Shown here: one piece after another, positions 17,055 to 60,972 of the stretch
Position numbering within the stretch: the first letter of the stretch is position 1
Layout of the letters: every line of letters begins with the position of its first letter
DNA from: an uncultured Bdellovibrionales bacterium
GTDB taxonomy: Bacteria; Bdellovibrionota; Bdellovibrionia; Bdellovibrionales; Bdellovibrionaceae
Direction: 5' to 3'
DNA length: 64,000 nt
Assembly (NCBI GenBank): GCA_903926205.1
Contig: CAIYID010000003.1
Span: forward strand, 1 to 64,000
Translations under genes and position numbers: made by a program
Notes under the pieces: generated by a model
Seen by the model: the letters and a program-made list of their open reading frames with translations, nothing else
Told to the model about the DNA's origin: nothing
Databases searched by the model: none

Positions 17055-17282
17055 CGACTTTGCCCAATTTATTTTTATTTTATACTGAGCCCACATATCA
17101 TTGCCTCCAAAAAGTGCTTGGGTTGACTTTGGTCATCCCTTTGATCTATCGGCAGGCCAGTAAATTAATGGAATCCTTTTGATAAATCTGGTCTGGGGTC
17201 TAGATTTTTCAATTTCGTCTTTGGTTGTCTCAAGTGTAGAGAAAATGTACCGAAATGATATTAGGCAAAAGGTGGCTATAAT

Positions 17283-20947: not shown

Positions 20948-21061
20948 GCTTATTTGTACAAATACATAGGAATCAATACAAAAATTCAAGATTTGTTAAT
21001 TTTTTGCCGATCAAATATGCGATTCAATATGCCTATTGTTGTACGTTATGGAGGGTTTAAC

Positions 21062-26992: not shown

Positions 26993-27017
26993 GATTGTGA
27001 AAGAAAAAGGGACGTGG

Positions 27018-30000
27018 ATGAGAATTGTGTTGAAAAGAATTTTTTTAAAACTGTTCAGAGGACAAGTGGTGCTTGCGTTGGCATTTTTTGGCCTTGCGAC
27101 GAGCCTCACCGCTTGTCACAGTGGTGGAGCCCTTTCTGCACCAGTGCAACTTTCGACAGGGGGTCCGACCCTCGTTCCAACAATTGCCACTCCTGCGGCA
27201 AGTCCTTTCTATTCCTCCAGCAACTCTTTGGTGATTTCAGGAACCTGCATGACCGGAGATCTCGTTACTTTGAGTGGCCCATCAGGAGCGGTACAGACTT
27301 GTGCCAATGGAAGTTTTTCTTTTACAGTCCTTGCCAGTAACGATGGAGTTTACAGCTATCTTGTGACTCAAATGGATGGCAAGGGAACGATTTCAGCCCC
27401 TGCCTCCATGGTCTGGGTTCGTAAAACGAGTATTGCTCAGCCTGTCGTGCTCACGCCAACAGCAAGTCCATTTTTATCAGCACAAACGGTTTTATCAATT
27501 TCTGGTTCATGTGAAACTGGCGCGGTCGTGACCTTGTCAGGCGATGGGGTTGGCTCGAGTGTTTGTGTGGGCTCTCATTTTAACCTGTCTTTACCAAAAT
27601 TTATTGATGGTGATTACAATATAGTTGTGACTCAAACTGATGCTGCTAATAATTCTGCAAGTGTTTCTTTAATTTGGAAAAAGCACGCTTTGTTAGCTTC
27701 TCCAGCGAATCCCTTTATTCAAGTTGTAACACCTCAAATATTTACGCTGAGCGGAGGCTCGGGCTCTTACACTGTTAATTTAGCTACAAATAATTCTGGA
27801 GGAAATTTTAATTCGGCAACGAATACTTACACCACAGGAAGCGTAGCAAATGTTGCAGATACTTTGACCGTCACAGACACACTCGGAACCTCAGTCAATG
27901 TCGTTATTACGACCGTGGCAGGGCCTGCTGATCACTTGGTCTACGGAGCGACAAGTGGAAATGGTCAAACCACGACAATTGGTGGAAACTTGAGCTTACC
28001 ACTTGCGGTGCAGGTCGTGGATCAATATGGAAATGGAATTGCACACTACCCTTTATATTTTAGAGTTCTTCAAGGCGATGCCTCAATCACTAGCGCGATA
28101 TTACAGCTTTCGGATTTGACGGGCCTGTCGCAAATTAATGTCAAAATGGGTGACTCGGCTATTTCGAATATTATCGAGGTGGCGCCATTCAATGCTGTTC
28201 TTCCGGATAACGCAGGGTCTGGGAATGGGAAAATTACTTTTTCAGAGACCGCTACTTTTTCTGGCAAAGGCAATATGGGTGCCTTTTTCACCGTTGGTCA
28301 AAATCCGACAGGTTTAGTCATGGCAGATTTAAATGGTGATGGAAATTTGGATGCAGTTGTACTTAATACCGGTGATCCCAGCATTGGAATACTTCTAGGC
28401 TTGGGAAATGGCTTATTTTCAAACATGACAAAGATTCATCCTATTTGCAGCTCTCCGAATGGAATCGCGGTCGGTGATTTGCGAGGTAATGGAAAAAAAG
28501 ACTTGGTGATCACTTGTGGAAATTCGGTTGTAAATGCCATGCAGGTTTTATTAGGAAATGGTGACGGCACCTTTCAAACGCCTATAAATATTCTTTTAGA
28601 AAATGGTGAAAATATTCCTAATGCTATTTTGCTAGCAGATTTAGATGGAGATGGAAAACTCGACGTGGTCATCACTGCCGCCGGAAGTGCCCAAGTTTCT
28701 GTTCGGCTAGGAAAAGGAGATGGAACCTTCAATGCCGCTCAGTCTTACAATGTTGGAGCTTCACCGACGGCCATCGCAGTTGCCGATATCAAGAAAAGCG
28801 GCAAATTAGATCTCATCGTTGTAAATTCTGGAGATGATACTTTTAGTGTTTTATTAAACCAGGGTGGTGGACTTTTTGGTCCGCAAGTCAGTTTTGGAAC
28901 TGGAAATTCTCCGGTCTCCGTTGCCGTTGGTGATTTTGATAGCGATGGTTTCCCAGATCTCGCAGTCATAGAGAATGGAGATAGCCAAGTCACAATTTAT
29001 ATTAATGATAAAACCGGAGGTTTTAATAGTGGAACTGTCGTGCCTGTGGGATCAAATCCGAATTCCATTTTCGCAAAAGACATAGATGGCGATGGTAAAA
29101 TTGATCTTATTATTTCTAACGGAGACGACAATACTGTGACCGTCGCCTATGGACAGGGAAATGGTCTTTTTACTGGAATAGGATATTTTCCTGTAACGAT
29201 GAATCCATCATTTGTAACAACAGGAGATGTTAATAAAGATGGACAGCAAGATATTTTAGTGGTTGGAAACGGCAATAGACAATTGCAAGTATTGCCTGGA
29301 CAGCCTGGTAGAGTTTTTGATTATTCGACTCTTGTCGACACGAATCCAACGGCAGGAGCTGTTGCTGATTTTGATGGAGATGGGAAATTAGATGTTGCAG
29401 TGATTGCAACCGGAGCAAAAACTTTAAATATTTTAAAAGGTTTTGGGAATGGTTTATTTGCTCTTACAGGGACCTTGTCCACAAGTGATAATTCCAGTGC
29501 AGTGATCGCGGCAGATTTGCGTAACAATGGAAAAAAAGACCTGATCGTGACAAATCCGAATAAATCAAGCATTCGAGTTTTCTTGGGTAATGGCGATGGG
29601 ACTTTTGCTGCGGGGGTCGATTATGCGGTTGGAAACGGTCCTGCAGCAGTGATCGCGAAAGATTTTAATCTTGATGGAAAACTAGATTTAGCGGTTGTTA
29701 ATAGTGGCAGTAATAATGTCAGCATTTTAATGGGTAATGGCGATGGAACCTTCCAAGCGCAAGTGGTTTATTTGGTAGCGGGAGCTCCTTCCGCCATTGC
29801 GGCAGCAGATTTCAATGGTGATCATGTTTTTGACTTAGCTGTTACAAATAAGGCAAGCAACACAGTCAGTATTTTGATTGGAAACTCCAATGGAACTTTT
29901 CAAACTCATATTGATTATCAAACGGGCGGAGGCCCTAGTGCCGTACTTGCTGCTGACATTAACAATGATGGAAATATGGATTTGGCCGTGGCTAATATGA

Positions 30001-30329
30001 ATGACGGCTCTGTTAATGTCTTAATTGGTAACGGCGATGGTTCATTTAGAAATCCGACGACTTTTTTTGCCGGCTTAAATCCTCAAGCAATGATTATGGG
30101 TGATTTTAATGGAGATGGAAAATTAGATTTAGCCGTAACGAACGGAATAAATAATGTTTTCACCATTTTGTTGGGCTCCGGAAATGGTCAGTTCAATACA
30201 ACCTTAAGTGTTGATACAAATGGCGCCGCCAATGGACTCGTGGGCGCAGATTTTAATGGTGATGGCGCAGTAGATATTATGATTTTTGATGGAACAAACA
30301 ATGCTGTTAAATTGTGGTTGGGACACTGA
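27018..30329 (+). CDS. giant lipoprotein: FG-GAP/VCBS repeat protein
   Basis: This 1103-residue lipoprotein has a leader ending at SLTAC. Two short Ig-like domains (ASPFYSSSNSLVISG and ASPFLSAQTVLSISG), each with a cysteine pair, precede a Big-like region. From about residue 425 to the end there are 14 repeats of the type AADFNGDGKLDLAV...ILLGNGDGTF. The DxNxDGxxD motif is the calcium-binding loop of integrin-like FG-GAP propellers. Two seven-bladed propellers would account for 14 blades. ATG 27018 has an AAAAAGG site seven bases upstream; GTG 26997 is the other choice. The start lies 25 bases after the previous stop, so the gene is in the same operon. A calcium-stabilised binding protein on the cell surface is expected. 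Confidence 0.82.
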   Translation: MRIVLKRIFLKLFRGQVVLALAFFGLATSLTACHSGGALSAPVQLSTGGPTLVPTIATPAASPFYSSSNSLVISGTCMTGDLVTLSGPSGAVQTCANGSFSFTVLASNDGVYSYLVTQMDGKGTISAPASMVWVRKTSIAQPVVLTPTASPFLSAQTVLSISGSCETGAVVTLSGDGVGSSVCVGSHFNLSLPKFIDGDYNIVVTQTDAANNSASVSLIWKKHALLASPANPFIQVVTPQIFTLSGGSGSYTVNLATNNSGGNFNSATNTYTTGSVANVADTLTVTDTLGTSVNVVITTVAGPADHLVYGATSGNGQTTTIGGNLSLPLAVQVVDQYGNGIAHYPLYFRVLQGDASITSAILQLSDLTGLSQINVKMGDSAISNIIEVAPFNAVLPDNAGSGNGKITFSETATFSGKGNMGAFFTVGQNPTGLVMADLNGDGNLDAVVLNTGDPSIGILLGLGNGLFSNMTKIHPICSSPNGIAVGDLRGNGKKDLVITCGNSVVNAMQVLLGNGDGTFQTPINILLENGENIPNAILLADLDGDGKLDVVITAAGSAQVSVRLGKGDGTFNAAQSYNVGASPTAIAVADIKKSGKLDLIVVNSGDDTFSVLLNQGGGLFGPQVSFGTGNSPVSVAVGDFDSDGFPDLAVIENGDSQVTIYINDKTGGFNSGTVVPVGSNPNSIFAKDIDGDGKIDLIISNGDDNTVTVAYGQGNGLFTGIGYFPVTMNPSFVTTGDVNKDGQQDILVVGNGNRQLQVLPGQPGRVFDYSTLVDTNPTAGAVADFDGDGKLDVAVIATGAKTLNILKGFGNGLFALTGTLSTSDNSSAVIAADLRNNGKKDLIVTNPNKSSIRVFLGNGDGTFAAGVDYAVGNGPAAVIAKDFNLDGKLDLAVVNSGSNNVSILMGNGDGTFQAQVVYLVAGAPSAIAAADFNGDHVFDLAVTNKASNTVSILIGNSNGTFQTHIDYQTGGGPSAVLAADINNDGNMDLAVANMNDGSVNVLIGNGDGSFRNPTTFFAGLNPQAMIMGDFNGDGKLDLAVTNGINNVFTILLGSGNGQFNTTLSVDTNGAANGLVGADFNGDGAVDIMIFDGTNNAVKLWLGH

Positions 30330-30366: not shown

Positions 30367-33300
30367 GTGGAATGTGGACTATTTAAAAGGCTATTGACAG
30401 CCATTATTCTTACTCTCACTTTTGCAGGTTGCAGCTTTAAGCAATCAGCGACAGTCCCTACGCCAACGATGGTGAAGCTGACAAGCATGACCCTTGTTTC
30501 TTATACATCAACCGTGGCCACAGTTAATCTTACGGGAACTTTACCTGCCTCAGTGATCAGCGCACAAAGTCCAGTCCAGTTTTTTACAGATTCCACCTGT
30601 GGTGGTTCAAAAGTTGGGCAAGGATTAGCAAGTGATTTTTCCGGTCAAGGCGTTCAGCTTTTATTGCCAGTCTCTGTGACAAGTCATATTTATTTTTCGA
30701 CAAATACTGTTTCTGGATGTTTTTATGTTGGTGATTTTAATTTTTCCCCGGGTCAGCCTCTGCCACCAGTTTTTAATAGCACAAGTCCATCTTCCCCTTC
30801 CGCCGTTTCTTACGAACCAGCCATTTTTGGAACAGCCTTAATTAATTCAACAGTGAATCTTTATACCGATGTGAATTGTACGCAGCTGGTGGGTTCTGGC
30901 TCTTCTTCTGATTTTTCCTCCATTGGAGTGCAGGTCACTTTATTACCAGATACCACCTCTTCGATTTATGGTGAAGTGGTAGATCCTGTGGGGACCGTGT
31001 CTACATGTTCTTTGTTGACTCAATATCAACATAGTAGTCTTGGTCCGAGTCCTCCCGTTTTCCTTTCAACGAATCCTGCCTCACCGAATAATTTATCTTT
31101 AACACCGGTGCTGACGGGAACGGTTTCTACTGGCACGGTAACAGTTTCTGTCTATGGCGACTCGGCATGCTCAAATCTTTTAGTCTCAGGCTTGGCCACC
31201 GATTTTACCTCGACAGGTTTTCAACTCACAGTCACGGCAAACTCTTTGTCCACGCTTTACGCGCAAGCTTACGATGCGGCGGGATTACCCTCTGTTTGTA
31301 GTTATTTAACAAACTATTTGTATGACAATGTCGCACCTGCGGCACCAACCTACAGCTCTGCAAACCCTGTGACACCCACTCGATTAACGATTTATCCAAA
31401 AATTTCAGGTCTTTCTTCCGCAGATACTGTTCAGATGAAGTTTTTCAATTCCATTTTGTGTTTGGTGCAAATTGGAGCTGGAAGTAAGGCTGAATTCGAA
31501 AGCACAGGGATCATTGCGGGGGTCGCTCCAAATGCGATCACACCAATTTATGCCGTGGCCGTGGACAGTGCTGGAAATAACTCAGCCTGCACTCATTTTG
31601 TGGATTACTTGAATAATACCATTCCACCAAGTTTACCTATTTTTGGATCAACAACACCGCCGTCACCAAATAATATTTCTTCGAATCCAATGATCATTGG
31701 AATCGCTTCGTTAGAAACAGTTTCTTTGAACTTTTTTTCTGACTCTAATTGTACCGCTCAGATGGGTACAGGAACTGCCGATGATTATAATGGAGCTGGA
31801 ATTTTGCTTACGACCCCTGCCATTCCGAATTCAGTGAATATAACAAATGTTTTTGTGGAAGCGATTGATGCCGAGGGAAATGTCAGCGAGTGTTCTCAGT
31901 TGACGACTTATGGATATTCAACGGCAAAGGCTCAGCCAGCCGCGTTTTTACAAAGCATTCCGAAATCGCCATCGAATACAAGTAAAAAACCTTGGATTCT
32001 CGGTACGGCTCCGGCTTCAGTTTCATTCGTGCGGTTATTCAACGATTCTTCTTGTCTCCAAAATTTGGGTTCTGCTAGTCGAAGCACTTTTTCAGCCATG
32101 GGAATTCAAATCACAGTGAATGCGAATACTTCGACAGATCTTTATTCGCTGACAACTGACGTTTACGGCAATGATTCTGATTGCACCTATTTGACTACTT
32201 ATGTGCATGATAATATTTCTCCTTTGGCACCAAGCTTTTTAGCCTCAACGCCGATTTCACCGAATAACCAATCAACAACCCCTTTGATTCAAGGTTCCGT
32301 AGTCACGAATATTATTGGAAAACCGCTCACAACATCAGTTGTAAAGTTTTACGATAATTTCTTATGTCTTGGACAGTTGGGACATGGGGCACCTGCAACG
32401 TTCACTTCCTCTGGAATAATGATCGAAGTTCCGCCCAACGTTGCAAGCACGGTCTACGCGCAAACTGGAGATGCCGCCGGAAATACAAGTTCTTGCACTT
32501 TCATGCTGAATTACACTCATGACACCAATCCGCCAGGAAGACCAATTTTAGGTTCAGCAACACCGATGACGCCGTCTTACAGTCGTAAAACAATTATCAA
32601 GGGAAGTTTGGCTTCAAATTTTGATATTGTGGCTTCTGCTAATGTTAATTTTTATCGTGATTCTTCTTGCCTTAATTTATTGGGAACTGGACTTGCGAGT
32701 GATTACATCGGAAGCGGGATTTCCCTCGTGGAAGACCAAAATCAGACGACCACGATGTATGGACAAACGATTGATATTGTCGGGAATCTATCTGTTTGTA
32801 CTCATTTACTGGATTTTGTCCATAGTGATGTTCCTCCCGCAAATTTACAGGCCACACAAAATTTGGATGGATCAGTTAGTTTGGGATGGTCTCCTGACAC
32901 TTTGGCATCGCCAAATCCTGTGTATGAAGTTAAGCGCTCAAGAGTGAGCGGTGGTCCTTATGCCGTATTAACATGGAATCAAAATGGCAATAGCTATACA
33001 GATTATTCAGTTAGCAATGGAAAAACTTATTATTATGTCGTGGCGGCCACAAATAATACTGGGGCGAGTTTGGATTCAAGTGAAGTGGCAATAACCGTGA
33101 CCGCGACGGCGGCTCAAACACCAACGGTTTTGCAAGCAACCCCTGGGTCAAATTTGATCGTATTAAACTGGAATGGCTTTCAGCCAGATATGTTTTATAA
33201 AATCTTGCGTGCGACACAAACCGGAGGTCCTTATTCTGAATTTGCAATAGATATTAATGGGACCTCCTACACAGATAAATCAGTTATCAACGGTATAACT

Positions 33301-36300
33301 TATTACTACGTTGTTGAAGGAAAAAATTCCTCCGGCGATAGCGTGCAATCAAATGAGGCGAGTGCCACGGCGATGGATGCCCCACCGGCGCCGACTCATT
33401 TAACTGCGACTTTATTCAATAGCCTTCCGGCTTGTGGCAATAATTATGGCGTTTATTTGGCGTGGAGTGGAGGCTCTTATTACACCTCCTTTGCCCTTCG
33501 ACGTGGGACCTCTAGTGGGGGAGAATCCGACCATGTAATTACTGCGGGGAATTCTTATCTTGATTGCGTTCCCCCTGGACAATCCATCACTCATTTTCTT
33601 TATTATCAGGTGCAAGGAATTTGGGGACCCATTCAGGGTCCTATGAGATCGCCATCTTCTAATGAAGTTTCTCTGAGCGATCGTTCTGGTCCTGCGGTGA
33701 CAGTTTCACCCGGAAATGGCGAAGTTTTCATTAGATGGGGCTCTGTTGTAAATGCGAATAATTATCAAGTTTGGAAAGCCACAGTTTCAGGTTGGAAAAA
33801 TCCGAGCTATGTTCAGCTAGATCCAAGTTTTAATGGAACTAATTATCAAGACACCAGTGTTGTCAACGGAACGGCTTATTACTATGTGATTATCTCTAAT
33901 TATTCTGGCGTAATATCAGGAGCGCCATCAGTTGAGGCCAGCGGCGTTCCGAATATAAATCCTGGGCCTCCTTCTAATTTAGTTATCACACAAAGTATTG
34001 GTTCTGCATCACCGCAATTGACTTGGTCAGGGCCAGCGAATTTCAATAACTTTAATATTTATTCAGCACCTGCCTTCGGAGGTCCTTATTTATATGTAGC
34101 ACCTTCTCTTGTGAATAATTTTATTGATTCTCCATCGAGCAATGGAACTCATTACTATTACGTTACTACTCAATGGGGAAGCTTTGAATCTGCGCCGTCA
34201 AATATTGTCAGTTATACTTTTGGTTTTCCGGCAGTTATTGCAATTAATACCACTGCGACAGCTTTATCCTTAACCTGGTCAACAGTAACAAATGCACTTT
34301 CTTATAATGTTTTACGAGGAACAACCTCTGGCGGACCTTATACTCTGCTGGCGAATGTCGCGACTTCTCCTTATTCAAATACGACCGCCGCACCTGTTGC
34401 AAATCCTGCGGTGGCGGGCACGGGATATTATTATGTGGTTCAACCTGTCTTTGCGGGCGCCACAGTCGGTGAATATTCCAACCAAGTTAGTGGAATGTTG
34501 AGCGGAGTCTTTACGCCAACAGGCTTGACTGTGATAGGGACAACAAATTCTTCCGTCAGTTTACGTTGGCCAACGATCAACTCTGCTGGGGGCTATACTG
34601 TTTACAAAGCAACAAATTCCGCCGGACCTTACACCACCGCCGGCAATGTTAGTCGGGGGAATATTACTAGTTATACAGTGAATGCCTTGTTACCAAATAC
34701 ACATTACTATTTTAAAGTAGCGACTTCTTCTTGCGGTACCGGCTGTCAATCAAGTTTTACTTCGGCCTATACTTATTCAGCACCATCCGCGCCATCTGTC
34801 AGTGTTGGAAATTCTTCTCTGCAAATTCAATGGACTGCCATTGGCGGAGCAACTTCTTACAACGTTCTTCGTTCTACCGACGGTATAAATTTCACAAATA
34901 TTCAATCTGGTGCTACTGGTGGAGCCTACACCGACACGACGGTGGTGAATGGAAATATTTATTTTTATGAAATTCAGGCGGTGTATCCTGGTGGTTCATT
35001 GAATTCAGCTTCAAGCAACGGAATTACGCCAGGAGTAACACCGCTCACGCCAAATGGTCTTACTGTGATAGATAATTCTACCGGAACAGACATCGGCCTT
35101 AACTGGGCGGCTGTGTCAGGCGCGACAACTTATTCAGTGTATTTATCAACCACGAGTGGTGGTCCGTGGGGAACTTCAGTTTTAGGATCTTCTTCGACAA
35201 CAGATAATTATTTAACCGGTTTAACACCAGGAACGACTTATTATGCGGTTGTTACTGCATTGAATGGAACAATGGAATCTGGATATTCATCTGAGATTGC
35301 CTTTATTCCTTCTCTTCAGTCTTCAGCTCCAACAGCCTTGTTGGCGGGTACGTCGGTAGATGTTAATTGGGGAGCTCTTGGCGGGGCGATCTCTTATGAT
35401 GTGTATCGCTCGGTGAACTCTGTTGATTTTTCTCCTCTGGCGACGGGCCTCGTGGTCACGACTTACACTGACAGTACTGTCGTTGCGGCAAAAACTTATT
35501 ACTATAAAATTTTACCACATGGAGCTGGTGGAAACTTGATGGCCTTTTCAGCGGTGAGTCTTCCTGTCACAATCGTTGATCCACCAAGCCCTACGACTTT
35601 GGTTGCGGAGGCGCCAAACACGGGCACCGTTAACCTCTCTTGGGTGGTGGCTTATTCTCCGCAAGTGAGCACTTATAATATTTATCGAGGAAATGCCTCG
35701 GGTGGACCGTATACAAAAATTGGAACACGAGGTTTTGCTGTTAATCAGTATCCAGACGGCACCGTCGTTTCAGGAAACACTTATTATTATGTCATGACTG
35801 CGGTAAATATTTTTGGTGGTGAATCTGCTTATTCAAACGAAGTCGGGGTTTCTCTAACGGCGGGGCCAGCCACATTAACGGCAATGACCGCTTCAAATAA
35901 AATTAGTCTTACCTGGGCTACCACAGCCGGAGCTACGGGTTATCTTATTCGTCGAAGCCTACAAAGCGCTGGTCCTTATGGCTCTCTGGCGACTCTGGGT
36001 GTTGCCACAAATTACCAAGATGACAAAATTCTCAACGGAGTCACTTACTACTATGTTGTAGATGCAATTTTAGCAGGAGGAGTTCTATCCGTTGATTCTC
36101 CGGAGGCTTCAGTCGCTGCTGTGCTGGTGATGAATTTGCAAGTGCCGATTGAGTTGACAGATCAGGCGATGAGCTCTGACACGGTAGCGACTACGTTTGA
36201 ACGCACGCAAACAAGTTTAGATCCCACCGCTTATGATGGAACGGTCACTTATAAAATTGAAACCGTGGCAATTAATACAGACTCCGTCGGCGCAAATTTT

Positions 36301-37332
36301 TCAGTTGTTGATTCTGGTGGCGTTGTCCGGGGAAGTCTGGTGATTCCCGCAGGCACTCATTCACCGACGCGAATGAGTGCCGTCTTTACACCGAATGTTT
36401 TAGCAGATAATTATAGAGTTCAACTTAGTTCGACAACGAATGCGGGTCAATTGCAGGTGTACTCTGCAAGAATTTTGATTACTCAAGTCGGTGCTTCAAA
36501 AACAAAAGTTTATATTCCCTTGTTATCTTCGGCGAATTCCCCTTCACTAGGAGATCTGTATTCACCGACTGAATCAAGCAGCAATAGTGGATATGCCGTT
36601 TTAAACTCATCAACAATATTTAAGCGAGATCCTTCGCGCTTTGTTCAGCTTATTGAATATAATCCTTGGCAATTTGAGGCCTTGGTTTCATCTAATGGAG
36701 GCAGGGGACTGATTGGTCTTTATAACCGAACGACCAGTGGAATAGTGGAGAGCTCTGAAATTGAATTTAATTCTAGTAACGTAACTATGGTAAAAGCAGA
36801 TTTTGGAGATGGCGTTGCCAATTTTTCTAGCCCAGCAAATGATTTGAATCAGTATCAAGTTGCGATGCAATGTTCTGGCAATTGTGATTTGGGCTCAGTG
36901 AGTGTTTATAAAGCGGGTCTTTGGGTTTCACTGACTAATTTAGAAAAAGTAGAAGTAATATTTAGAAATGGTTTGGCAAATAACAATATTAATTCTTTGC
37001 TGGATATTGACAACGAAAGAACAATGGTAGATTTGTCAAAATTTTCTAATCCAGTTGTTAACTTTCGTGCTGTCGCCAATCCACAAAATATGACAGTGGC
37101 CTCTGTTCAATTAATGACAGCGGGTTCTGGTGGAGGTTCTGACTCAGGCACGGGTTCGATATCAGGAGTGACGGACTCTTCATTGAACTTCCTGACAGGA
37201 GGTCTGCAATTGGTTGAAACGTCTAGCCCAGTGACGCTCAACTCTCTCGATCGATATTTGGTCGAGGTGAACTCCACTGGTGGAGGAATCAAGCTTCAGG
37301 ATGCGTCCATTATAATAGAGACTTCACCTTAG
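30367..37332 (+). CDS. giant lipoprotein: Ig-like plus fibronectin type III repeats
   Basis: This 2321-residue lipoprotein starts at GTG and has a leader LTAIILTLTFAGC. Residues 30-820 hold about eight modules of roughly 100 residues, each starting with a P-F-ST-P-SPN linker and each containing two cysteines. Residues 820-1920 hold about 12 fibronectin type III modules, seen as SLGW/VLNW/SLTW strands followed by Y-V-R-T-SGGPY and TYYYVV. The last 400 residues are a unique domain starting LQVPIELTDQAM. It starts 37 bases after the previous stop, so it is the third gene of the operon. It is likely a long stalk-like surface protein for adhesion. The extreme length and repetition make assembly errors possible here. 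Confidence 0.8.
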   Translation: MECGLFKRLLTAIILTLTFAGCSFKQSATVPTPTMVKLTSMTLVSYTSTVATVNLTGTLPASVISAQSPVQFFTDSTCGGSKVGQGLASDFSGQGVQLLLPVSVTSHIYFSTNTVSGCFYVGDFNFSPGQPLPPVFNSTSPSSPSAVSYEPAIFGTALINSTVNLYTDVNCTQLVGSGSSSDFSSIGVQVTLLPDTTSSIYGEVVDPVGTVSTCSLLTQYQHSSLGPSPPVFLSTNPASPNNLSLTPVLTGTVSTGTVTVSVYGDSACSNLLVSGLATDFTSTGFQLTVTANSLSTLYAQAYDAAGLPSVCSYLTNYLYDNVAPAAPTYSSANPVTPTRLTIYPKISGLSSADTVQMKFFNSILCLVQIGAGSKAEFESTGIIAGVAPNAITPIYAVAVDSAGNNSACTHFVDYLNNTIPPSLPIFGSTTPPSPNNISSNPMIIGIASLETVSLNFFSDSNCTAQMGTGTADDYNGAGILLTTPAIPNSVNITNVFVEAIDAEGNVSECSQLTTYGYSTAKAQPAAFLQSIPKSPSNTSKKPWILGTAPASVSFVRLFNDSSCLQNLGSASRSTFSAMGIQITVNANTSTDLYSLTTDVYGNDSDCTYLTTYVHDNISPLAPSFLASTPISPNNQSTTPLIQGSVVTNIIGKPLTTSVVKFYDNFLCLGQLGHGAPATFTSSGIMIEVPPNVASTVYAQTGDAAGNTSSCTFMLNYTHDTNPPGRPILGSATPMTPSYSRKTIIKGSLASNFDIVASANVNFYRDSSCLNLLGTGLASDYIGSGISLVEDQNQTTTMYGQTIDIVGNLSVCTHLLDFVHSDVPPANLQATQNLDGSVSLGWSPDTLASPNPVYEVKRSRVSGGPYAVLTWNQNGNSYTDYSVSNGKTYYYVVAATNNTGASLDSSEVAITVTATAAQTPTVLQATPGSNLIVLNWNGFQPDMFYKILRATQTGGPYSEFAIDINGTSYTDKSVINGITYYYVVEGKNSSGDSVQSNEASATAMDAPPAPTHLTATLFNSLPACGNNYGVYLAWSGGSYYTSFALRRGTSSGGESDHVITAGNSYLDCVPPGQSITHFLYYQVQGIWGPIQGPMRSPSSNEVSLSDRSGPAVTVSPGNGEVFIRWGSVVNANNYQVWKATVSGWKNPSYVQLDPSFNGTNYQDTSVVNGTAYYYVIISNYSGVISGAPSVEASGVPNINPGPPSNLVITQSIGSASPQLTWSGPANFNNFNIYSAPAFGGPYLYVAPSLVNNFIDSPSSNGTHYYYVTTQWGSFESAPSNIVSYTFGFPAVIAINTTATALSLTWSTVTNALSYNVLRGTTSGGPYTLLANVATSPYSNTTAAPVANPAVAGTGYYYVVQPVFAGATVGEYSNQVSGMLSGVFTPTGLTVIGTTNSSVSLRWPTINSAGGYTVYKATNSAGPYTTAGNVSRGNITSYTVNALLPNTHYYFKVATSSCGTGCQSSFTSAYTYSAPSAPSVSVGNSSLQIQWTAIGGATSYNVLRSTDGINFTNIQSGATGGAYTDTTVVNGNIYFYEIQAVYPGGSLNSASSNGITPGVTPLTPNGLTVIDNSTGTDIGLNWAAVSGATTYSVYLSTTSGGPWGTSVLGSSSTTDNYLTGLTPGTTYYAVVTALNGTMESGYSSEIAFIPSLQSSAPTALLAGTSVDVNWGALGGAISYDVYRSVNSVDFSPLATGLVVTTYTDSTVVAAKTYYYKILPHGAGGNLMAFSAVSLPVTIVDPPSPTTLVAEAPNTGTVNLSWVVAYSPQVSTYNIYRGNASGGPYTKIGTRGFAVNQYPDGTVVSGNTYYYVMTAVNIFGGESAYSNEVGVSLTAGPATLTAMTASNKISLTWATTAGATGYLIRRSLQSAGPYGSLATLGVATNYQDDKILNGVTYYYVVDAILAGGVLSVDSPEASVAAVLVMNLQVPIELTDQAMSSDTVATTFERTQTSLDPTAYDGTVTYKIETVAINTDSVGANFSVVDSGGVVRGSLVIPAGTHSPTRMSAVFTPNVLADNYRVQLSSTTNAGQLQVYSARILITQVGASKTKVYIPLLSSANSPSLGDLYSPTESSSNSGYAVLNSSTIFKRDPSRFVQLIEYNPWQFEALVSSNGGRGLIGLYNRTTSGIVESSEIEFNSSNVTMVKADFGDGVANFSSPANDLNQYQVAMQCSGNCDLGSVSVYKAGLWVSLTNLEKVEVIFRNGLANNNINSLLDIDNERTMVDLSKFSNPVVNFRAVANPQNMTVASVQLMTAGSGGGSDSGTGSISGVTDSSLNFLTGGLQLVETSSPVTLNSLDRYLVEVNSTGGGIKLQDASIIIETSP

Positions 37333-37451: not shown

Positions 37452-38108
37452 ATGGGTAAACCTATGACTCTATTGAAGGTTCTTGCGATTGTTATTGGGC
37501 TGCTAACAGCAGCTTGTTCGACCACTCAATTTGAAGTGAAGAGTGATCCCGTGACGGCGGAAGTTTCAGTTCTAAATGAAAAAAATGAAAAAAAACCTTT
37601 AGGAAAAACTCCTTTGCTTATGCCTGATTCAGAAGTGAAAAAAATTTTGGGAGATGGTGTGACTCCAGGTGAATTTTTTACGGTCGTTGTTGAAAAAGAA
37701 GGTTTTGTTCCTCAAACATTTAGTATTCCCGCGTCCCGTTTTGGAACACTTGTTACTTCGCTCACTGTGAAGCTCAAAGAAGGCGAAGCTCCCCAGGAAG
37801 CGCGCATTGCAAAAGAAATTCTTGATCATCTTTTTTTGGCGCAAAAGTTAGCATTAGCGCAGCAATTTGAAAGAGCACAGATTGAATTGGATAAAGTCAT
37901 TACACCTTTTCCAAAATTTTCAAGGGCGCTCTCAATGCGCGCTTCCATTTACTTTGCACAAAAAAATTATCCTGAAAGTATGAAGTGGTACGAAGAAGCT
38001 TTGAAAAATGATCCTCAGATGGAAGAGGCGGTAAAAATGCTGGCAAAGGTACGAACGCTTCAAGGCCTTCCGACAACAGGAATTGATGCCGGAAAGAAAG
38101 GACCATGA
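37452..38108 (+). CDS. PEGA/TPR lipoprotein of the motor-like locus
   Basis: This 218-residue lipoprotein has a leader ending in LTAAC. Residues 25-110 look like a PEGA-type beta domain (FEVKSDPVTAEVSV...PLGKTPLLM...FTVVVEKEGFVPQTF). Residues 120-205 are TPR helices (AQQFERAQIELDKVITPFPKFSRALSMRASIYFAQKNYPESMKWYEEAL). PEGA and TPR domains in envelope proteins usually make protein-protein contacts. Its stop overlaps the ATG of the FliG-like gene in ATGA, so the two are translationally coupled, suggesting a periplasmic partner for that protein. No clear ribosome site precedes the ATG at 37452. It begins 119 bases after the giant lipoprotein operon. Confidence 0.75.
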   Translation: MGKPMTLLKVLAIVIGLLTAACSTTQFEVKSDPVTAEVSVLNEKNEKKPLGKTPLLMPDSEVKKILGDGVTPGEFFTVVVEKEGFVPQTFSIPASRFGTLVTSLTVKLKEGEAPQEARIAKEILDHLFLAQKLALAQQFERAQIELDKVITPFPKFSRALSMRASIYFAQKNYPESMKWYEEALKNDPQMEEAVKMLAKVRTLQGLPTTGIDAGKKGP

Positions 38109-39925
38109 TGAAAAAGTCTGTTGGAAACTTTCTAAAATTTTCAGCTCTTTTAGGCTTTTTGACTTGCGCTTTTTACTCAACGGCCTTTGCGGCAAAAACA
38201 ACATCGGTGAGTGCGAATGCCTCAACGGATGAATTAAGCGCTAAGGCTTTTTTGGAAGATCTAATGGTGCGTAGATACAGTCAAGGTCTTGGGACTATTG
38301 TTGATCGTCAGGCCTTTTCGCTGGGTGTTCAGTTGCAACTGATGGATGCTTCTAAGGGCAAACCTAAAGTTAAAAATGATCCCAATGAAACGCCCTCGGA
38401 TCTTCTATTGGGAGCCTTGGATCCAGAGAAATTGATTCAGCAATTTGGAATGGATGAAGAAAAACCCGCCTTTATGGGTTTTTTAGCAACGAAAAAAATA
38501 AAAACAGTACAAGTGTATGTTGGACTTCGTGAAGATCTAGGTAGCGCAATAAAGACTGATGTCGAAAAGTGGCTGAACACGCGCTTAACCAATGAGTTCG
38601 GAAAAATTGGTAAAAGCGAAGTTAACTTTGTGAAAGAAATTCCTGCTAAACCAGAAAAAATAGGTCACAGAGAATGGTGGGATTGGTTGAGCCAATTCCA
38701 ACATCTTGCGGGCGAGCTTTTAATGGCGATGACGCTACTGTTGGGGATAATTTTGTGGAGATTCACGACTTCGAAATCTTCAGTTGATCGAAATAACAAC
38801 GGGGAATCACCGAATATCAAGCTTCAAGCTCAAGGGATGGGGGGCGGTTCTGGTGAGGATGGTGCAAAAAAGCCTTCTATAGAAGAGCTCGAAGCGCGCA
38901 GCCGTTCTGCGGAGGAAATTATCAGCCTTTCTGTGAAATTGAATGCTTTAGTTCCGAAAATATCTTCGGAATTTGAAAATATTGTAAGATCTTGGTGCCA
39001 AGCCGGCGAAGAGGGTAAGTTGAAACTGGTATGTTTCGCCGAGGCTGTTGGTCGAGACGTCGGTCGTCTTCCAATTCCGGTCGATGCAATGAAGGATTTG
39101 AGTCGAATTTTTGCCAAAATGAATGAAGTAAATCCAAAAGAAAAAGCGCAAATTTTAGAAAAAGTTTATTGGGATTTAGTCAGTGTCCTCAATTTGGGCC
39201 CAGATGTTCTCAGTCAGCCTTTTGGTTATTTGGCCGGACTTGATACCAGTGTGATTAGCAATGTGTTGATGGATCAAAACTCAAAAATGAAAACATTGGT
39301 CTCATTATTTATGCCAGATGACATTCGACGAAAATTTGTTAAGCCCATGACTGCGGATCAAAAATTTCAGCTCTTAGAAGCGGCATCAAAAATGAATGAA
39401 ATTGCTAGCGATGAATTGCGCACGGCCGACCACTCACTCATGAAAAAACTTAAAGCCGGTGAGTCTTCAGGCGACTCTGTTCATTTAGAAATGACGTTGG
39501 AAAAGATTATTTCTTCTTTATCGATCTTAGAAGAGATAGAAATGCTAGCAAAATTAGAGGGACCAGGAGTGCTTGAATACAAACGAAAAATTCCAAGCTT
39601 GGCTTTCTTGAAAGACTGGCCAGAAGATAAATTGTCGATCATTATGGGAAGAATTCGAGTCGACCAAGCTGTGGTATATTTGAGACTTCAACCGGAAATG
39701 AAAGATCGAATGATTGCATTAGCTCCGCCAATCACAGCTGAAATGCTTAATGATGAGCTCGCAGAGCCAGATAAATTAAATGATGAAGAAAAAATTCGTC
39801 GTCTAGAAGTTTTTGCCGAGCTGTTAAAAGAAATGGTTAAACATAAAGAAGTAGATCTTGCAGAACTCTTTCCAGAGCCATCAAAAAACAAGGAAAATAA
39901 CGTTGTTGAAATTAAGAGTGCGTGA
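38105..39925 (+). CDS. FliF-like/FliG-like hybrid rotor protein
   Basis: This 606-residue protein begins with a signal peptide (to FAA, residue 30). Residues 130-180 (KTVQVYVGLREDLGSAIKTDVEKWL) resemble a ring-building domain of the FliF/secretin type. One membrane helix lies at 202-219. The cytoplasmic part follows FliG in order: an N-like domain at 305-365 (VGRDVG...LSRIFAKMNEVNPKEKAQILEKVY), a middle-like domain at 372-450 (FGYLAGLDTSVISNVL...LLEAASKMNEI), and a C-like domain at about 475-590 (WPEDKLSIIMGRI...AEMLNDEL). The FliG EHPQ motif position carries DQNS. These matches are by eye and need profile searching. It overlaps the lipoprotein gene by four bases and is followed by an outer-membrane-type protein and MotAB, so a rotor role is proposed. 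Confidence 0.6.
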   Translation: MMKKSVGNFLKFSALLGFLTCAFYSTAFAAKTTSVSANASTDELSAKAFLEDLMVRRYSQGLGTIVDRQAFSLGVQLQLMDASKGKPKVKNDPNETPSDLLLGALDPEKLIQQFGMDEEKPAFMGFLATKKIKTVQVYVGLREDLGSAIKTDVEKWLNTRLTNEFGKIGKSEVNFVKEIPAKPEKIGHREWWDWLSQFQHLAGELLMAMTLLLGIILWRFTTSKSSVDRNNNGESPNIKLQAQGMGGGSGEDGAKKPSIEELEARSRSAEEIISLSVKLNALVPKISSEFENIVRSWCQAGEEGKLKLVCFAEAVGRDVGRLPIPVDAMKDLSRIFAKMNEVNPKEKAQILEKVYWDLVSVLNLGPDVLSQPFGYLAGLDTSVISNVLMDQNSKMKTLVSLFMPDDIRRKFVKPMTADQKFQLLEAASKMNEIASDELRTADHSLMKKLKAGESSGDSVHLEMTLEKIISSLSILEEIEMLAKLEGPGVLEYKRKIPSLAFLKDWPEDKLSIIMGRIRVDQAVVYLRLQPEMKDRMIALAPPITAEMLNDELAEPDKLNDEEKIRRLEVFAELLKEMVKHKEVDLAELFPEPSKNKENNVVEIKSA

Positions 39926-40532
39926 GCTGAGCTCATTTCTTCTTGGAGTTCTTCTGACGTTGTCTGCGCAAGAGGCTCGTGCTGAATATCGTTTGGGCGC
40001 TACCTTGGGGTACGGGGGAGCGGGTATTGACTCCGTGAACAGTATTAGTTCAACAGATGTTAATGTGCATCGAAGTGATGGACCAGGCATGCTTGGACTT
40101 TCCATAGAGTTTCTAACCAGCGACACCTCTAGTATTTCAGTGGATCATACGCGCGGTATTTTTATTTCTCCATTTTCCAGTGGAGTGGGTTTTACAGGTG
40201 TTACTTGGCGATGGTTTTATACAGGGAAAAGTCCATCTGTGGTTGCCTCTCAAAATGAAAATAGTATTTTAATTGTCACGCGTAGAATTCCGTTTTTAGG
40301 TCTTGCGGCTGGTATAGCCAGTGGTTCGATTTATCGAGAAAACGACTTAGTGCCTTCAGTGAGCGCGGGCGGTGTTTACACGGGCTTTCATGCTGGGTAT
40401 GACTATCAAACAACTCCAGGGCGATTTACAAGAATCGAAGCCTTATATGCTTCGACACCAACCTCTTCAGGTTTTGTAAAAACTGCGTTGAGCGAATTTT
40501 CTCTTCAAATTGGCATGTACTTTATCTACTAA
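39903..40532 (+). CDS. small outer-membrane beta-barrel-like protein
   Basis: This 209-residue exported protein has a signal peptide (FLLGVLLTLSAQEARA). The rest is made of alternating strands with aromatic ends (YRLGATLGYGGAGIDS, GVGFTGVTWRWFY, FTRIEALYAS) and a terminal FSLQIGMYFIY ending in tyrosine, as in small outer-membrane barrels of eight to ten strands. I chose a TTG start at 39903 because AAGGA lies eight bases upstream; an ATG at 39858 lies deeper in the preceding gene. The gene overlaps the FliG-like gene by 23 bases. It could be the outer-membrane part of the motor-like complex. Confidence 0.6.
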   Translation: MLKLRVRELSSFLLGVLLTLSAQEARAEYRLGATLGYGGAGIDSVNSISSTDVNVHRSDGPGMLGLSIEFLTSDTSSISVDHTRGIFISPFSSGVGFTGVTWRWFYTGKSPSVVASQNENSILIVTRRIPFLGLAAGIASGSIYRENDLVPSVSAGGVYTGFHAGYDYQTTPGRFTRIEALYASTPTSSGFVKTALSEFSLQIGMYFIY

Positions 40533-40637
40533 ACTGTCGACGAAAAATATTCAGCAACTCAACTCTCTACGAAACAATAAGAGAAAATTCTTTTAAGTGA
40601 CAAAGGTCATGTTTTTTCACCGCTTGAGTGAGAGCAA

Positions 40638-40666
40638 TTGTGCGTTAACTAAATAGTTTCTACTAT
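40638..40666 (+). promoter_or_regulatory. candidate promoter for motA
   Basis: TTGTGC at 40638-40643 and TACTAT at 40661-40666 are separated by 17 bases, a moderate match to sigma-70-type -35 and -10 boxes. They lie about 40 bases before the MotA start, in a 174-base gap that separates MotAB from the preceding lipoprotein/rotor/barrel genes. This suggests that MotAB can be expressed separately. Confidence 0.3.
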
Positions 40667-40706
40667 GAAATTGGAAACAGTTTGTTTTGTTTCTTCGAGG
40701 TGTTGA

Positions 40707-41498
40707 ATGAATATATCATCAGTTGTTGGAGTTATCGCGGCATTGTTTGTCATGATTTTTGGGATAGTGACGTCCTCAAAATCAGCCATGATTTTCTTAG
40801 ATCCTCATGGAATTTTGATTGTCTTCGGAGGAACGTCAGCTGCCGCATTAATGTGTTTTCCTCCGCGATTTTACATACAAGTAACCAAAGTGGTTTGGAA
40901 AAAATTCTTTGGTAACTACGGTATTCGCCGTGAAAATGTTATTCGAGAGATAGTAGATCTTGCAAAAGGAGTTCGAGAAAATCCTGATTATTTAAAAACA
41001 AAGGTAAAATCTATAAAAACACCGTTTTTAGCAGATGCTGTAGATTTGCTAATTCAGGGAGGTTTTCCAGAAGATACTCTCTTAGAAATGATGATAAAAA
41101 GATCAGCGATTTTATCCAAGCGGTACGATCAAGACGTCGGAGTTTTTCGAACCATTGCAAAATTTCCTCCTGCCTTTGGTCTTATGGGGACAACTCTTGG
41201 AATGATTTCCCTTTTACAACAATTGGGGGGAAAGGATGCACAAAAGCTTTTAGGCCCGGCGATGGCCATCGGGCTTGTGGCTACGTTTTATGGATTAACT
41301 TTGACAAATTTAATTCTGATTCCAATTGCCGAAAATTTAGCTTCGATCAATCGAGACGATGAGTCTCTTCGTTCGATTGTTATTGATGGACTCCGCATGG
41401 TTCGCCAAAAAGATCATCCTAAAGTGGTAGAAGAATATTTAAAAAGTCATTTAACTCCGACAGAGAGAATGCAATACAGTAAAAGGAAAGTGGCGTGA
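40707..41498 (+). CDS. motA: MotA/PomA-type stator protein
   Basis: This 263-residue inner-membrane stator subunit has four hydrophobic segments. The first two are SVVGVIAALFVMIFGIV and GILIVFGGTSAAALMCF. The last two are in FGLMGTTLGMISLLQQLG, which contains the conserved P-GLMGT motif, and AMAIGLVATFYGLTLTNLILIPIA. A charged cytoplasmic loop lies between about residues 70 and 150. It forms the proton or sodium channel with MotB and pushes on a FliG-type rotor. Its gene overlaps motB by four bases. A GAGGTGTTGA stretch precedes the ATG. Bdellovibrio has several MotAB pairs, so it may serve the flagellum, but the nearest rotor-like gene is the hybrid upstream. Confidence 0.93.
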   Translation: MNISSVVGVIAALFVMIFGIVTSSKSAMIFLDPHGILIVFGGTSAAALMCFPPRFYIQVTKVVWKKFFGNYGIRRENVIREIVDLAKGVRENPDYLKTKVKSIKTPFLADAVDLLIQGGFPEDTLLEMMIKRSAILSKRYDQDVGVFRTIAKFPPAFGLMGTTLGMISLLQQLGGKDAQKLLGPAMAIGLVATFYGLTLTNLILIPIAENLASINRDDESLRSIVIDGLRMVRQKDHPKVVEEYLKSHLTPTERMQYSKRKVA

Positions 41499-42199
41499 GC
41501 GCAGTAAAAAATAAGCCTCATGATCCCTCGTTGGATCCCGTCCATGAAGTTCATGAGGACGGCGATGGTAACTGGTTGGTGTCTTACGCGGACATGATGA
41601 CCTTGTTAGTGGGATTTTTCGTTATTTTGCTTAGTTTTTCCACCGTGGATCAGGAAAAATTCGAAGCCGCAAAAAAATCAGTATCCAAACAATTCGGTGG
41701 AAAATATGAAGAGCCCTATGAAGAAATTGCTAGTCGTGTGCGTGAAGCTTTAAAAAAGGCGAATGTGGGCGATCAAATTGTCGTTAAGACCAATGAAAAA
41801 GGGGTCGAAATTTCTTTTCTGGGGCCGCTCTTTTTTGTTACGGGTTCAGTAGATATGAAAACTGAGGCCCGAAACCTATTAGATACTTTAATAAAAGCGA
41901 TTAAGGGCGAAGCTCTAGATTTTAACTACGTCGTCGAGGGTCACACCGATGATGTGCCATTAAACTCTGGGGGAATTTATAAAAATAACTGGGAACTTTC
42001 TAGCATTAGGGCCTGTCGTGTATTGGATTATTTTGCTTTGAGCGGATTTGATAAATTGCATTTAACGGCTATTGGCTATGGAGACACTCGACCATTGTTG
42101 CCTAATCGTGATGACAATGGAGTTCCTATTCTGGCGAATCAAAGTCAAAATCGTCGAGTGATTATTAAGATGATTAAAAAGGACACAGACGCACTGTGA
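41495..42199 (+). CDS. motB: MotB-type stator protein
   Basis: This 234-residue stator subunit has a short cytoplasmic start and one membrane helix with the ion-carrying aspartate D33 in WLVSYADMMTLL. A plug/linker region of about 60 residues and a C-terminal OmpA-type peptidoglycan-binding domain (VVEGHTDDVPLNSGG...NWELSSIRACRVLDYF) complete it. It starts at GTG within the motA stop, with AAAGGA upstream. Its length is on the short side for MotB. With MotA it makes the anchored force generator. The next gene follows after about 100 bases with a TATAAT box at about 42272, so it may be transcribed on its own. Confidence 0.93.
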   Translation: MSAVKNKPHDPSLDPVHEVHEDGDGNWLVSYADMMTLLVGFFVILLSFSTVDQEKFEAAKKSVSKQFGGKYEEPYEEIASRVREALKKANVGDQIVVKTNEKGVEISFLGPLFFVTGSVDMKTEARNLLDTLIKAIKGEALDFNYVVEGHTDDVPLNSGGIYKNNWELSSIRACRVLDYFALSGFDKLHLTAIGYGDTRPLLPNRDDNGVPILANQSQNRRVIIKMIKKDTDAL

Positions 42200-42299
42200 T
42201 CGCAGGACTTTCTTGAAAAGACCAACGACCAGGCAATCTAAGAGTCTGGGTAGCGTTTTGTTTGTATGATTTTATAATAAATCAAAGTAAAATACTTCT

Positions 42300-43682
42300 A
42301 TGGAGAATATAGAATACCCTCATCCTCAGTCTATTTCCGAACCCACAAAAAAAGCTTGGTATCTTTTTGGAGAGGCCGGAGCCTCGGGTCCATTTTCTGA
42401 ACTGGAGGTTATTCAACAGATTAATCAAAGAAAGGTAGATGCTAGTTATAAAGCCTGGTCTCCAGCTTTAGGAAAATGGGAAAAAATATTTTCCGTTACA
42501 GAATTTAGGCCTTACGAAAACAAGGCAGCAGAACAACCACAGTTAGAAATAAATTCAGAAAAAAAAGTTGCACCACTGACTGACGAGGACTGGGATAGGA
42601 TTCTTGGTCAAAGCCGATTTACTTTCGACGACGCCGAGGGCGGGAAGGCGATATCTTTTCGTAATCGAATTTCAGATTTGATTTTACCATTAAAAAAATC
42701 ACCAATGAGCAGTCGATACACGAGAGCTTTTCTCGTTGGAATCTTTGCGTCTGTGACCGTGGCTTGGATATTTAATCATTATTCAATTTTGAACTCAATG
42801 ACCCTCGATTCTCAGGATATTTCAGCACAAGAGTTTCGTGAAATAAAAGCTGCTGTGTCGGAGCCTTTTTCTGCCGGTGATCCGAGTGTAGCGATTGGCT
42901 TAATAAAAAATGTCGACAATGGAGTTAGTTTTGCTATTGGCTCAAATCAATCCGATGGAACTCGATTTTTAGTTAAAATAGAAGGAATTTCAGAAACTCT
43001 CATTGGTGCTTTTGAGTTTTCGAGTCAATCAAGCGTGAGCTTAAAAAATGGAATTGCCAGAACTTCGAATCTTTTAGTGGATTCAAAGCAAAAAATTCCT
43101 GCCGGAGAATATCGAATTTCGGTTTTGTGTGAATCCTGTGAAAAAGCACATGTACTGACTGAAAAAATATATTTTATTAATGGTTCACGGAATCTCGAAT
43201 ATGATCTTAAGCTAAGACAATATCATAAAGATCTGCGCCAACAGGGGCGTAATGAATTACTTGAGGCGGAACAACTCACAGAAACCTTAGAGCGTGAAGT
43301 CATGAGCCTGTCCGCAGTCTTGGCTGGCGGAGCTGAGGGCAGCCCCGGACGAAAAACTTTGCCTGATACCTTTGGGCGCATGCACCAGCAACTTGGTAAT
43401 ATCATTAGTCAATGGAGTAAAAAGAATAGTCGCAAAGAGGTTTTTTACGGAAGTGTCTTTTCAAGTTTGCAGCAGGCTTTTGAGGTGACAAGTCAAACTC
43501 AAGAACTACAGAAAAAGTATTTAATGAATCTGAATTCTCATCCCGCGGTAGCAAGTGAATTGGAAGAAGAAATAGTGTTAAAAAATTCAAATGCTTTGTC
43601 GTCCCTTGTAAACTTGAAACATAAAATAAAAAATTTTGAACGTCTTCCGCTTTCTGCAAACGGAATGCCTCGAAATAAATAA
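42300..43682 (+). CDS. GYF_2-domain membrane protein
   Basis: This is a 460-residue protein. Residues 17-70 form a GYF_2-type domain (AWYLFGEAGASGPFSELEVIQQINQ...), which normally binds proline-rich peptides. A disordered linker leads to one membrane helix at about 139-158 (AFLVGIFASVTVAWIFNHYSI). The C-terminal part is outside the cytoplasm: a beta-rich region (GTRFLVKIEGISETLIGAFEF), a cysteine pair in VLCESCEKA, and a helical region with KLRQYHKDLRQQGRNELLEAEQL. Function is unknown. It lies immediately after MotAB, and its cytoplasmic GYF domain could contact a proline-rich partner. The PPPPP tail of the coiled-coil protein at 20861 is one candidate, speculatively. Confidence 0.65.
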   Translation: MENIEYPHPQSISEPTKKAWYLFGEAGASGPFSELEVIQQINQRKVDASYKAWSPALGKWEKIFSVTEFRPYENKAAEQPQLEINSEKKVAPLTDEDWDRILGQSRFTFDDAEGGKAISFRNRISDLILPLKKSPMSSRYTRAFLVGIFASVTVAWIFNHYSILNSMTLDSQDISAQEFREIKAAVSEPFSAGDPSVAIGLIKNVDNGVSFAIGSNQSDGTRFLVKIEGISETLIGAFEFSSQSSVSLKNGIARTSNLLVDSKQKIPAGEYRISVLCESCEKAHVLTEKIYFINGSRNLEYDLKLRQYHKDLRQQGRNELLEAEQLTETLEREVMSLSAVLAGGAEGSPGRKTLPDTFGRMHQQLGNIISQWSKKNSRKEVFYGSVFSSLQQAFEVTSQTQELQKKYLMNLNSHPAVASELEEEIVLKNSNALSSLVNLKHKIKNFERLPLSANGMPRNK

Positions 43683-57863: not shown

Positions 57864-58220
57864 ATGGAAGCAAAGACAAGCTTAAAAAGAAAAAATGATA
57901 ATTCGAAAGTCCTTAATGAGTTAGGGATTGCCGATAATTTTTTTTCTCGGGCCAAAGGACTTTTGGGAACAAAAAATTTAGCTCCCGGTCGTGGTCTCTG
58001 GATTCATCGCTGTAATAGCATCCATACTTTTTTTATGAAGTATGCAATTGATTGTATTTTTTTAGATTCGGAAATGAAAATCGTTTCTCTGATTCCTCAG
58101 GTAACGCCAGGAAAAATGGTGTGGCCACAGCCAAGGGCTTTATCCGTGGTCGAAATGGCGGCAGGACAGCTGGAGAAATTGAATTTAAAAGTTGGAGAAG
58201 AGCTGTATGTGGGCAATTAG
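57864..58220 (+). CDS. DUF192 family protein
   Basis: This 118-residue DUF192 protein has the family core SRAKGLLGTKNLAPGRGLWI, NSIHTFFMKYAIDCIFLD and VVEMAAGQLEKLNLKVGEE. Many relatives are exported, but no signal peptide is seen here. The function of the family is unknown. The gene lies three bases after tadC and overlaps the FHA gene by 14 bases, so it belongs to the Tad operon. DUF192 genes often occur in Tad loci. Confidence 0.88.
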   Translation: MEAKTSLKRKNDNSKVLNELGIADNFFSRAKGLLGTKNLAPGRGLWIHRCNSIHTFFMKYAIDCIFLDSEMKIVSLIPQVTPGKMVWPQPRALSVVEMAAGQLEKLNLKVGEELYVGN

Positions 58221-60938: not shown

Positions 60939-60972
60939 GAAGGATTAAGAGTAAAGAGGGATAACCACCAAG

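Follow-up and report, generated by a model that had tools for sequence, protein, structure and literature searches.

Motors of the MotA family that operate without FliG include ExbBD, TolQR, AglRQS, GldLM and ZorAB and, to our knowledge, every known MotAB-FliG pair works in the flagellum. A natural FliF-FliG fusion occurs in Chlamydiaceae, bacteria without flagella (Bergeron 2016, PMC4768692). The gliding motor of Bdellovibrio is still unidentified and has been named an open challenge (PMC13104615). Our search of the open-access literature turned up no report of MotAB paired with FliG other than in the flagellum. Here we analyse a 64,000-nucleotide window (positions 1 to 64,000 of contig CAIYID010000003.1, assembly GCA_903926205.1) from an uncultured member of the Bdellovibrionaceae. 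Six tightly packed plus-strand genes at 37452-43682 encode a lipoprotein (LP), a hybrid protein with FliF-like and FliG-like parts (HYB), a small outer-membrane protein (OMP), MotA, MotB and a GYF_2-like protein. The cluster probably encodes a non-flagellar, MotAB-driven rotor coupled to outer-membrane and surface lipoproteins.

Architecture of the hybrid protein

HYB is a natural FliF/FliG-type fusion composed of one RBM3-like periplasmic domain (residues ~35-179), one transmembrane (TM) helix (~200-218, the one strong TM segment) and the N, M and C domains of FliG (~302-590). Searches with the single sequence gave FliG_C in Pfam at E=0.081, which is not significant, and no match by phmmer in the PDB. 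A profile of 22 relatives aligned by hhalign with a real FliG of the same phylum (E 1.1e-11, probability 97.4, 279 columns), and the aligned span, HYB 302-584 against FliG 16-334, covers FliG N, M and C. A phylum search with the HYB family HMM detected ordinary FliGs of ~340 aa down to 1.5e-13, and relatives of the type-3 subtype matched FliGs in nearly all 53 genomes tested, mostly near 1e-20 and down to ~1e-22. Relatives of the type found in Bdellovibrio bacteriovorus HD100 exceeded Pfam cut-offs for FliG_C (4.6e-10), FliG_M (1.4e-7) and FliG_N (2.1e-5).

Structure modelling extended these results. A contig search with the close HYB alignment gave 6 loci that were used for folding, and the resulting AlphaFold2 (AF2) model (7 sequences in the alignment) had a mean pLDDT of 66.5, with ~70-80 over most of the RBM3-like domain. 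Residues 370-593 of the model matched FliG with Z 12, residues 496-583 matched Thermotoga maritima FliG_C over 88/89 residues (Z 11.1, 2.2 A), and residues 35-179 matched FliF RBM3 of the Vibrio S-ring (8z5v) over 98 residues (Z 10.8, 3.1 A). FliF or MS-ring chains ranked right behind FliG among structures. An OsmC-like fold for the RBM region (Z ~7-8) ranked under FliF and was set aside as a common alpha/beta arrangement. The FliF-like periplasmic and FliG-like cytoplasmic parts proposed in the initial annotation were thus both recovered, with FliG N-M-C found by profile and by structure alike; the outcome named there as a refutation, a missing FliG fold, did not arise. On the family profiles and the structure model, the predicted FliG part of the hybrid is beyond doubt.

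RBM1 and RBM2 of FliF are missing from HYB, and the RBM3-like domain takes up its periplasmic part (~35-198). Likewise, the window's HYB lacks the EHPQ motif through which FliG_M binds FliM, and MDQNSK aligns there with NEHPQT of the organism's own FliG. HYB would therefore be a rotor without a docking site for the switch complex.

Other open reading frames (ORFs) with FliG similarity were also observed. A ~250-aa protein with a FliG_C domain only (3.3e-5; L004, G000:C67:3652-3966) and its homologs occur in most genomes of the family. The same genome encodes a 144-aa FliG_C-only ORF distant from flagellar genes (62.5 bits; L002, G000:C48:35809-36126) and a 114-aa FliG_C-like ORF adjoining a XerC/D-like recombinase gene (38.5 bits; L003, G000:C8:5479-5754). 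At L072 9012-11038 (G065) a hybrid gene lies in two frames, reflecting a frameshift or an assembly error.

Stator, linkage and retention without flagella

MotA was nearest to PomA-type stator models (7.2e-46, under the equivalog cut-off), with Pro155 conserved in 70/70 sequences and Arg90 present in 44/67. MotB carries a plug and an OmpA peptidoglycan-binding domain, with the conserved Asp in SYADMMT. In the Escherichia coli reference, rotor-stator contact pairs R90 with D288-D289 (PMC12505986). The equivalent of FliG D288-D289, on the charged torque helix, is the acidic pair D550-E551 of HYB; an acidic residue occupies the two equivalent positions in 42/62 and 55/62 hybrids, respectively. These features bear on a Tol/Ton-like energiser, in which hybrid movement driven by MotAB would serve to pull or load lipoproteins of the outer membrane or to help maintain the envelope, with neither true rotation nor motility involved. 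Such work is done by the MotAB relatives TolQR/ExbBD, and partners that comprise lipoproteins, a LysM protein and a beta-barrel would suit it. However, the stator is of PomA type with plug and OmpA domain and, unlike TolQR/ExbBD systems, its partner has all three FliG domains (N-M-C) and conserves the torque residues; we regard an energiser of this kind as quite unlikely.

Hybrid relatives are spread across Bdellovibrionota, with profile matches in 88/325 genomes of the phylum, part of them plain FliG. Of 56 hybrid loci, many of which end at contig ends, 51 have LP and 46 have the barrel, while MotA was found at 39 and MotB at 36. Neighbourhood conservation, proposed in the initial annotation as a check, takes the form of a hybrid nearly always accompanied by LP and barrel and usually by MotA/MotB; gene order is reshuffled between subtypes while partner genes remain together. 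Within the window's family, hybrid and hybrid-linked MotA were both present in 21 genomes and both absent from 31, with the hybrid alone in 1 and MotA alone in 0 (P 6.9e-14, counting genomes as independent and leaving shared ancestry uncorrected). Hybrid and MotA distances correlated over 47 loci (r=0.81; 0/5000 permutations as high), a value to which shared ancestry contributes. In the MotA tree, hybrid-linked MotAs clustered strongly (2 changes versus 7.6 shuffled), flagellar branches there being very long. Where one genome holds two or three clusters (G019, G017, G059, G026, G008), copies pair by type. No hybrid relative was found in viral contigs. The close hybrid form is present in 33/141 genomes of the order, a patchy occurrence that might suggest a functionless, decaying flagellar duplicate. 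That explanation is extremely improbable against frames intact at 20-50% identity phylum-wide, conserved synteny and functional residues, and several paralogous copies per genome.

Three of 59 carriers are without FlhA and FliM: G122 (99% complete), G120 (97%) and G278 (89%). Rod/hook genes (Flg_bb_rod) were also absent from all three. The gene arrangement of G122 and G120 is that of the window and lies on a single contig: barrel-hybrid-lipoprotein, a 2300-aa lipoprotein, an FG-GAP protein and a ~1946-aa protein, together with a 358-377-aa protein, a LysM protein (detected by BLAST in G122), GYF, MotA and MotB. MotAs of G120/G122 have ordinary branch lengths and retain Arg (NYRTNENYL, KYRTDDNYL), their MotBs retain SYAD and their hybrids retain the acidic pair (SDDL, EDDL). 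In G278, a divergent hybrid adjoins divergent MotB, MotA and lipoprotein genes. Stator and FliG-type rotor are thus maintained where no flagellum is encoded. Because G120 and G122 keep the cluster while lacking FlhA, FliM and rod/hook genes, the set must be more than a flagellar stator locus. The separate non-flagellar motor raised in the initial annotation gains support from the phylum-wide linkage of hybrid and MotAB and, decisively, from these flagellum-less genomes.

G120 also has an extra, second MotAB cluster with a lipoprotein and a giant neighbour. Clusters at L169 9229-13667 (G064:C13) and L219 9142-13557 (G120:C15) share the order lipoprotein-MotA-MotB-~560-aa protein-small protein, with neighbours of 2344 and 1591 aa; the ~560-aa protein had no Pfam FliG match. 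They represent a divergent second type of system, one of them in a flagellum-less genome.

Several observations weigh against a separate motor. Flagella, as judged by FlhA, are also present in 56/59 carriers, and of the order's 9 flagellum-less genomes only 2 keep the cluster. In distant subfamilies the interface charges are sometimes missing. Sequence profiles link HYB to FliF weakly (probability 3.9, E 0.011); this link is not significant alone and the RBM3 assignment therefore rests on structure, in a model of moderate confidence. Rotation, ring assembly and interaction of the parts are all things we infer. Finally, genome G004, which we take to be B. bacteriovorus HD100, carries a cluster member at C1 2.913-2.920 Mb. 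Its FliG-like hybrid gene lies at about 2,913,420-2,915,153, and a MotB/MotA pair follows ~4 kb away at 2.919 Mb. All three HD100 motAB pairs are reported to contribute to swimming (Morehouse 2011, cited in PMC11323537). The pair beside the hybrid fits motB2/motA2, Bd3020/Bd3021 (tags in PMC11323537), which places HD100 motAB2 in the hybrid-linked MotA family.

The HD100 and FlhA observations, along with altered motA2/motB2 expression upon fliL loss (PMC11323537), would be expected if MotAB were an extra stator of the single flagellum, and hybrid, lipoprotein and barrel were basal-body accessories such as a stator-recruiting extra ring. We consider this unlikely, given that the cluster is retained in full by flagellum-less G120 and G122, that most flagellated members of the family are without it (31/53) and that the window's hybrid has lost EHPQ. 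Moreover, two-hybrid testing showed FliL-Bd1076 binding to MotB3 but to neither MotA2 nor MotB2 (PMC11323537). In that study, motA3 loss was uncompensated by the other alleles. The set may also do flagellar stator work in HD100 and other flagellated species; motAB2 may serve both functions, or the effects seen in deletion strains may be indirect.

The proposed machine and its locus

In the separate motor that we favour, MotB would anchor the stator in peptidoglycan and ion flow would turn MotA. The cytoplasmic face of MotA is predicted to engage the FliG_C torque helix of HYB, with Arg90 opposite D550-E551 by homology. The RBM3-like domains of HYB are expected to assemble into a periplasm-facing ring of the inner membrane, while the FliG part below the membrane helix would take the torque of MotA with no separate FliF, FliM/FliN switch or type III export. 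Turning in the inner membrane, the ring could drive the TPR lipoprotein, the OmpA-like barrel and the giant fn3/FG-GAP lipoproteins from the periplasmic side. The output might be material moved or loaded at the outer membrane or surface, serving surface motility or contact with prey or surfaces. A wider proposal is more tentative, and we put it forward as somewhat short of an even chance: rotary machines of a new class that span the envelope and descend from the flagellar motor but lack export apparatus, switch and filament. In these, a FliF/FliG rotor made in one piece and driven by its own MotAB would turn or move barrels of the outer membrane along with giant surface lipoproteins, and Bdellovibrionota would use this to power motility on surfaces or attachment to prey.

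The six genes of the initial annotation were found where it had placed them. Its limits for the cluster proved too narrow, as the whole locus comprises ~12 genes at 15.2-43.7 kb, extending upstream to ~15.2 kb and including three giant lipoproteins (Table 1). Overlaps described among the first three genes were confirmed: 4 nt (ATGA) between lipoprotein and hybrid, and 8-68 nt between hybrid and barrel, depending on choice of TTG or GTG start. MotA and MotB genes also overlap by 4 nt. The lipoprotein had been called PEGA/TPR; TPR exceeds the Pfam cut-off and PEGA is sub-threshold and seen in homologs only. The GYF_2 gene is in place with its domain below the Pfam cut-off (22.2 versus 25.8 bits). 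No type III export, rod, hook, switch or filament gene lies in the cluster and, as originally noted, no further flagellar gene lies nearby in the window. Promoter and terminator signals were none above chance.

Table 1. Genes of the proposed motor locus, with window coordinates.
Feature	Position	Strand	Basis
369-aa exported protein, conserved partner	15196..16305	-	13 homologs in cluster neighbourhoods elsewhere, including flagellum-less G120/G122
264-aa LysM (peptidoglycan-binding) lipoprotein, conserved partner	16302..17096	-	PF01476 above cut-off; lipobox LQGC; homologs in clusters elsewhere
1192-aa protein, heptad-like N-terminal sequence, tentative member	17283..20861	+	BLAST matches in 15 neighbourhood proteins, coverage <50%
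2012-aa fn3/Big_1/NHL lipoprotein	20954..26992	+	Pfam; full-length homologs (39-58%) in clusters elsewhere
1110-aa FG-GAP repeat lipoprotein	26997..30329	+	FG-GAP_3 1.1e-100; lipobox LTAC; cluster homologs
2321-aa fn3 lipoprotein	30367..37332	+	Full-length orthologs, 34-43% identity, beside hybrid in ~10 loci
TPR outer-membrane-type lipoprotein (LP)	37452..38108	+	TPR_2 1.1e-7; lipobox TAAC, Ser at +2
Rotor hybrid (HYB), 606 aa	38105..39925	+	Signal peptide, FliF RBM3-like, TM, FliG N-M-C
OmpA-like 8-stranded outer-membrane beta-barrel (OMP)	~39906..40532	+	AF2 model, Foldseek
MotA (PomA-like) stator subunit, 263 aa	40707..41498	+	PF01618 6.6e-16; Arg90, Pro155
MotB stator subunit, GTG start	41495..42199	+	Plug PF13677 8.6e-18; OmpA PF00691 5.6e-12
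GYF_2-like protein, conserved partner	42300..43682	+	GYF_2 1.2e-4, sub-threshold; cluster homologs elsewhere

The envelope partners form a recurring set. The AF2 model of the barrel protein (pTM 0.69) matched OmpA/NspA in Foldseek at E 5.5e-9 to 7.4e-8. GYF_2-like homologs occur in other clusters, including those of flagellum-less G120/G122, at E 3e-49 to 4e-60, and fn3, FG-GAP, fn3/Big_1/NHL and LysM lipoproteins recur around the cluster in other genomes together with the 369-aa exported protein, which had no Pfam match. The 1192-aa protein is the positional equivalent of 1116-1350-aa proteins adjoining GYF/MotAB in other loci. Each lipobox Cys observed is followed by a residue other than Asp, which under the E. 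coli sorting rule points to a predicted outer-membrane location. In type-3 clusters (L155, L075-L078, including HD100), two divergent barrel genes surround the lipoprotein gene. Type-2 clusters (L067 3398-8394 and relatives) adjoin a SpoIIE/HAMP/Cache phosphatase, a VWA protein and a FecR-domain protein, neighbours that suggest regulatory attachment. Elsewhere in the window, a 958-aa protein (10067-12943) carries at its C terminus a Peptidase_S74 (endosialidase chaperone) domain of the kind seen in phage tail fibres. The contig also encodes, ~15-24 kb downstream, a TolQ/TolR pair and FHA/GltG-like proteins (58192-63009, and L083 5553-6599).

Comparison with known systems

If our interpretation is true, the flagellar torque module would underlie a second, phylum-wide machine, in which stator and rotor accompany outer-membrane proteins and outlive the flagellum in some lineages, and this would bear on flagellum evolution. 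The cluster is a concrete, deletable candidate for the Bdellovibrio gliding motor, and HD100 motAB2, so far treated as a flagellar stator, merits re-examination together with its neighbouring FliG-like gene.

With the bacterial flagellar motor the system shares a PomA-type MotA, a MotB with plug and OmpA domain, FliG N-M-C, an RBM3-type domain, and the acidic pair and Arg of the interface. It departs from that motor in joining FliF and FliG parts in one chain, in its single RBM and loss of EHPQ, and in lacking export, rod, hook and filament genes in the cluster and likewise in three carrier genomes. One-chain rotors have also been engineered as FliF-FliG fusions in Salmonella and Vibrio (PMC4768692, PMC11481574), but these are artificial, contain full FliF and are flagellar. 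The Chlamydiaceae fusion has a SctJ/RBM2-type periplasmic part and homology to FliG M only, is thought to be injectisome-linked and has no described MotAB partner (PMC4768692), whereas the window's hybrid has an RBM3-type domain, full FliG N-M-C and linkage to MotAB and outer-membrane proteins.

Beyond the flagellum, Zorya ZorAB is a MotAB-like motor and the window's MotB matches ZorB models. Unlike Zorya, the locus has no ZorA-type long tail (MotA is 263 aa), and PADLOC returned nothing for MotA, hybrid or other partners. Anti-phage defence by Zorya was set aside, as ZorB models were matched by MotB only, not by MotA or hybrid. The Agl-Glt gliding machinery of Myxococcus and its Bdellovibrio homologs resemble the locus in combining a MotA-superfamily motor, a TPR lipoprotein and outer-membrane barrels in an assembly that spans the envelope; LP matched GltE at E 0.066 only. 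AglRQS is of TolQR/ExbD type and without a FliG rotor, whereas the window's MotA is PomA-type and its MotB is not ExbD.

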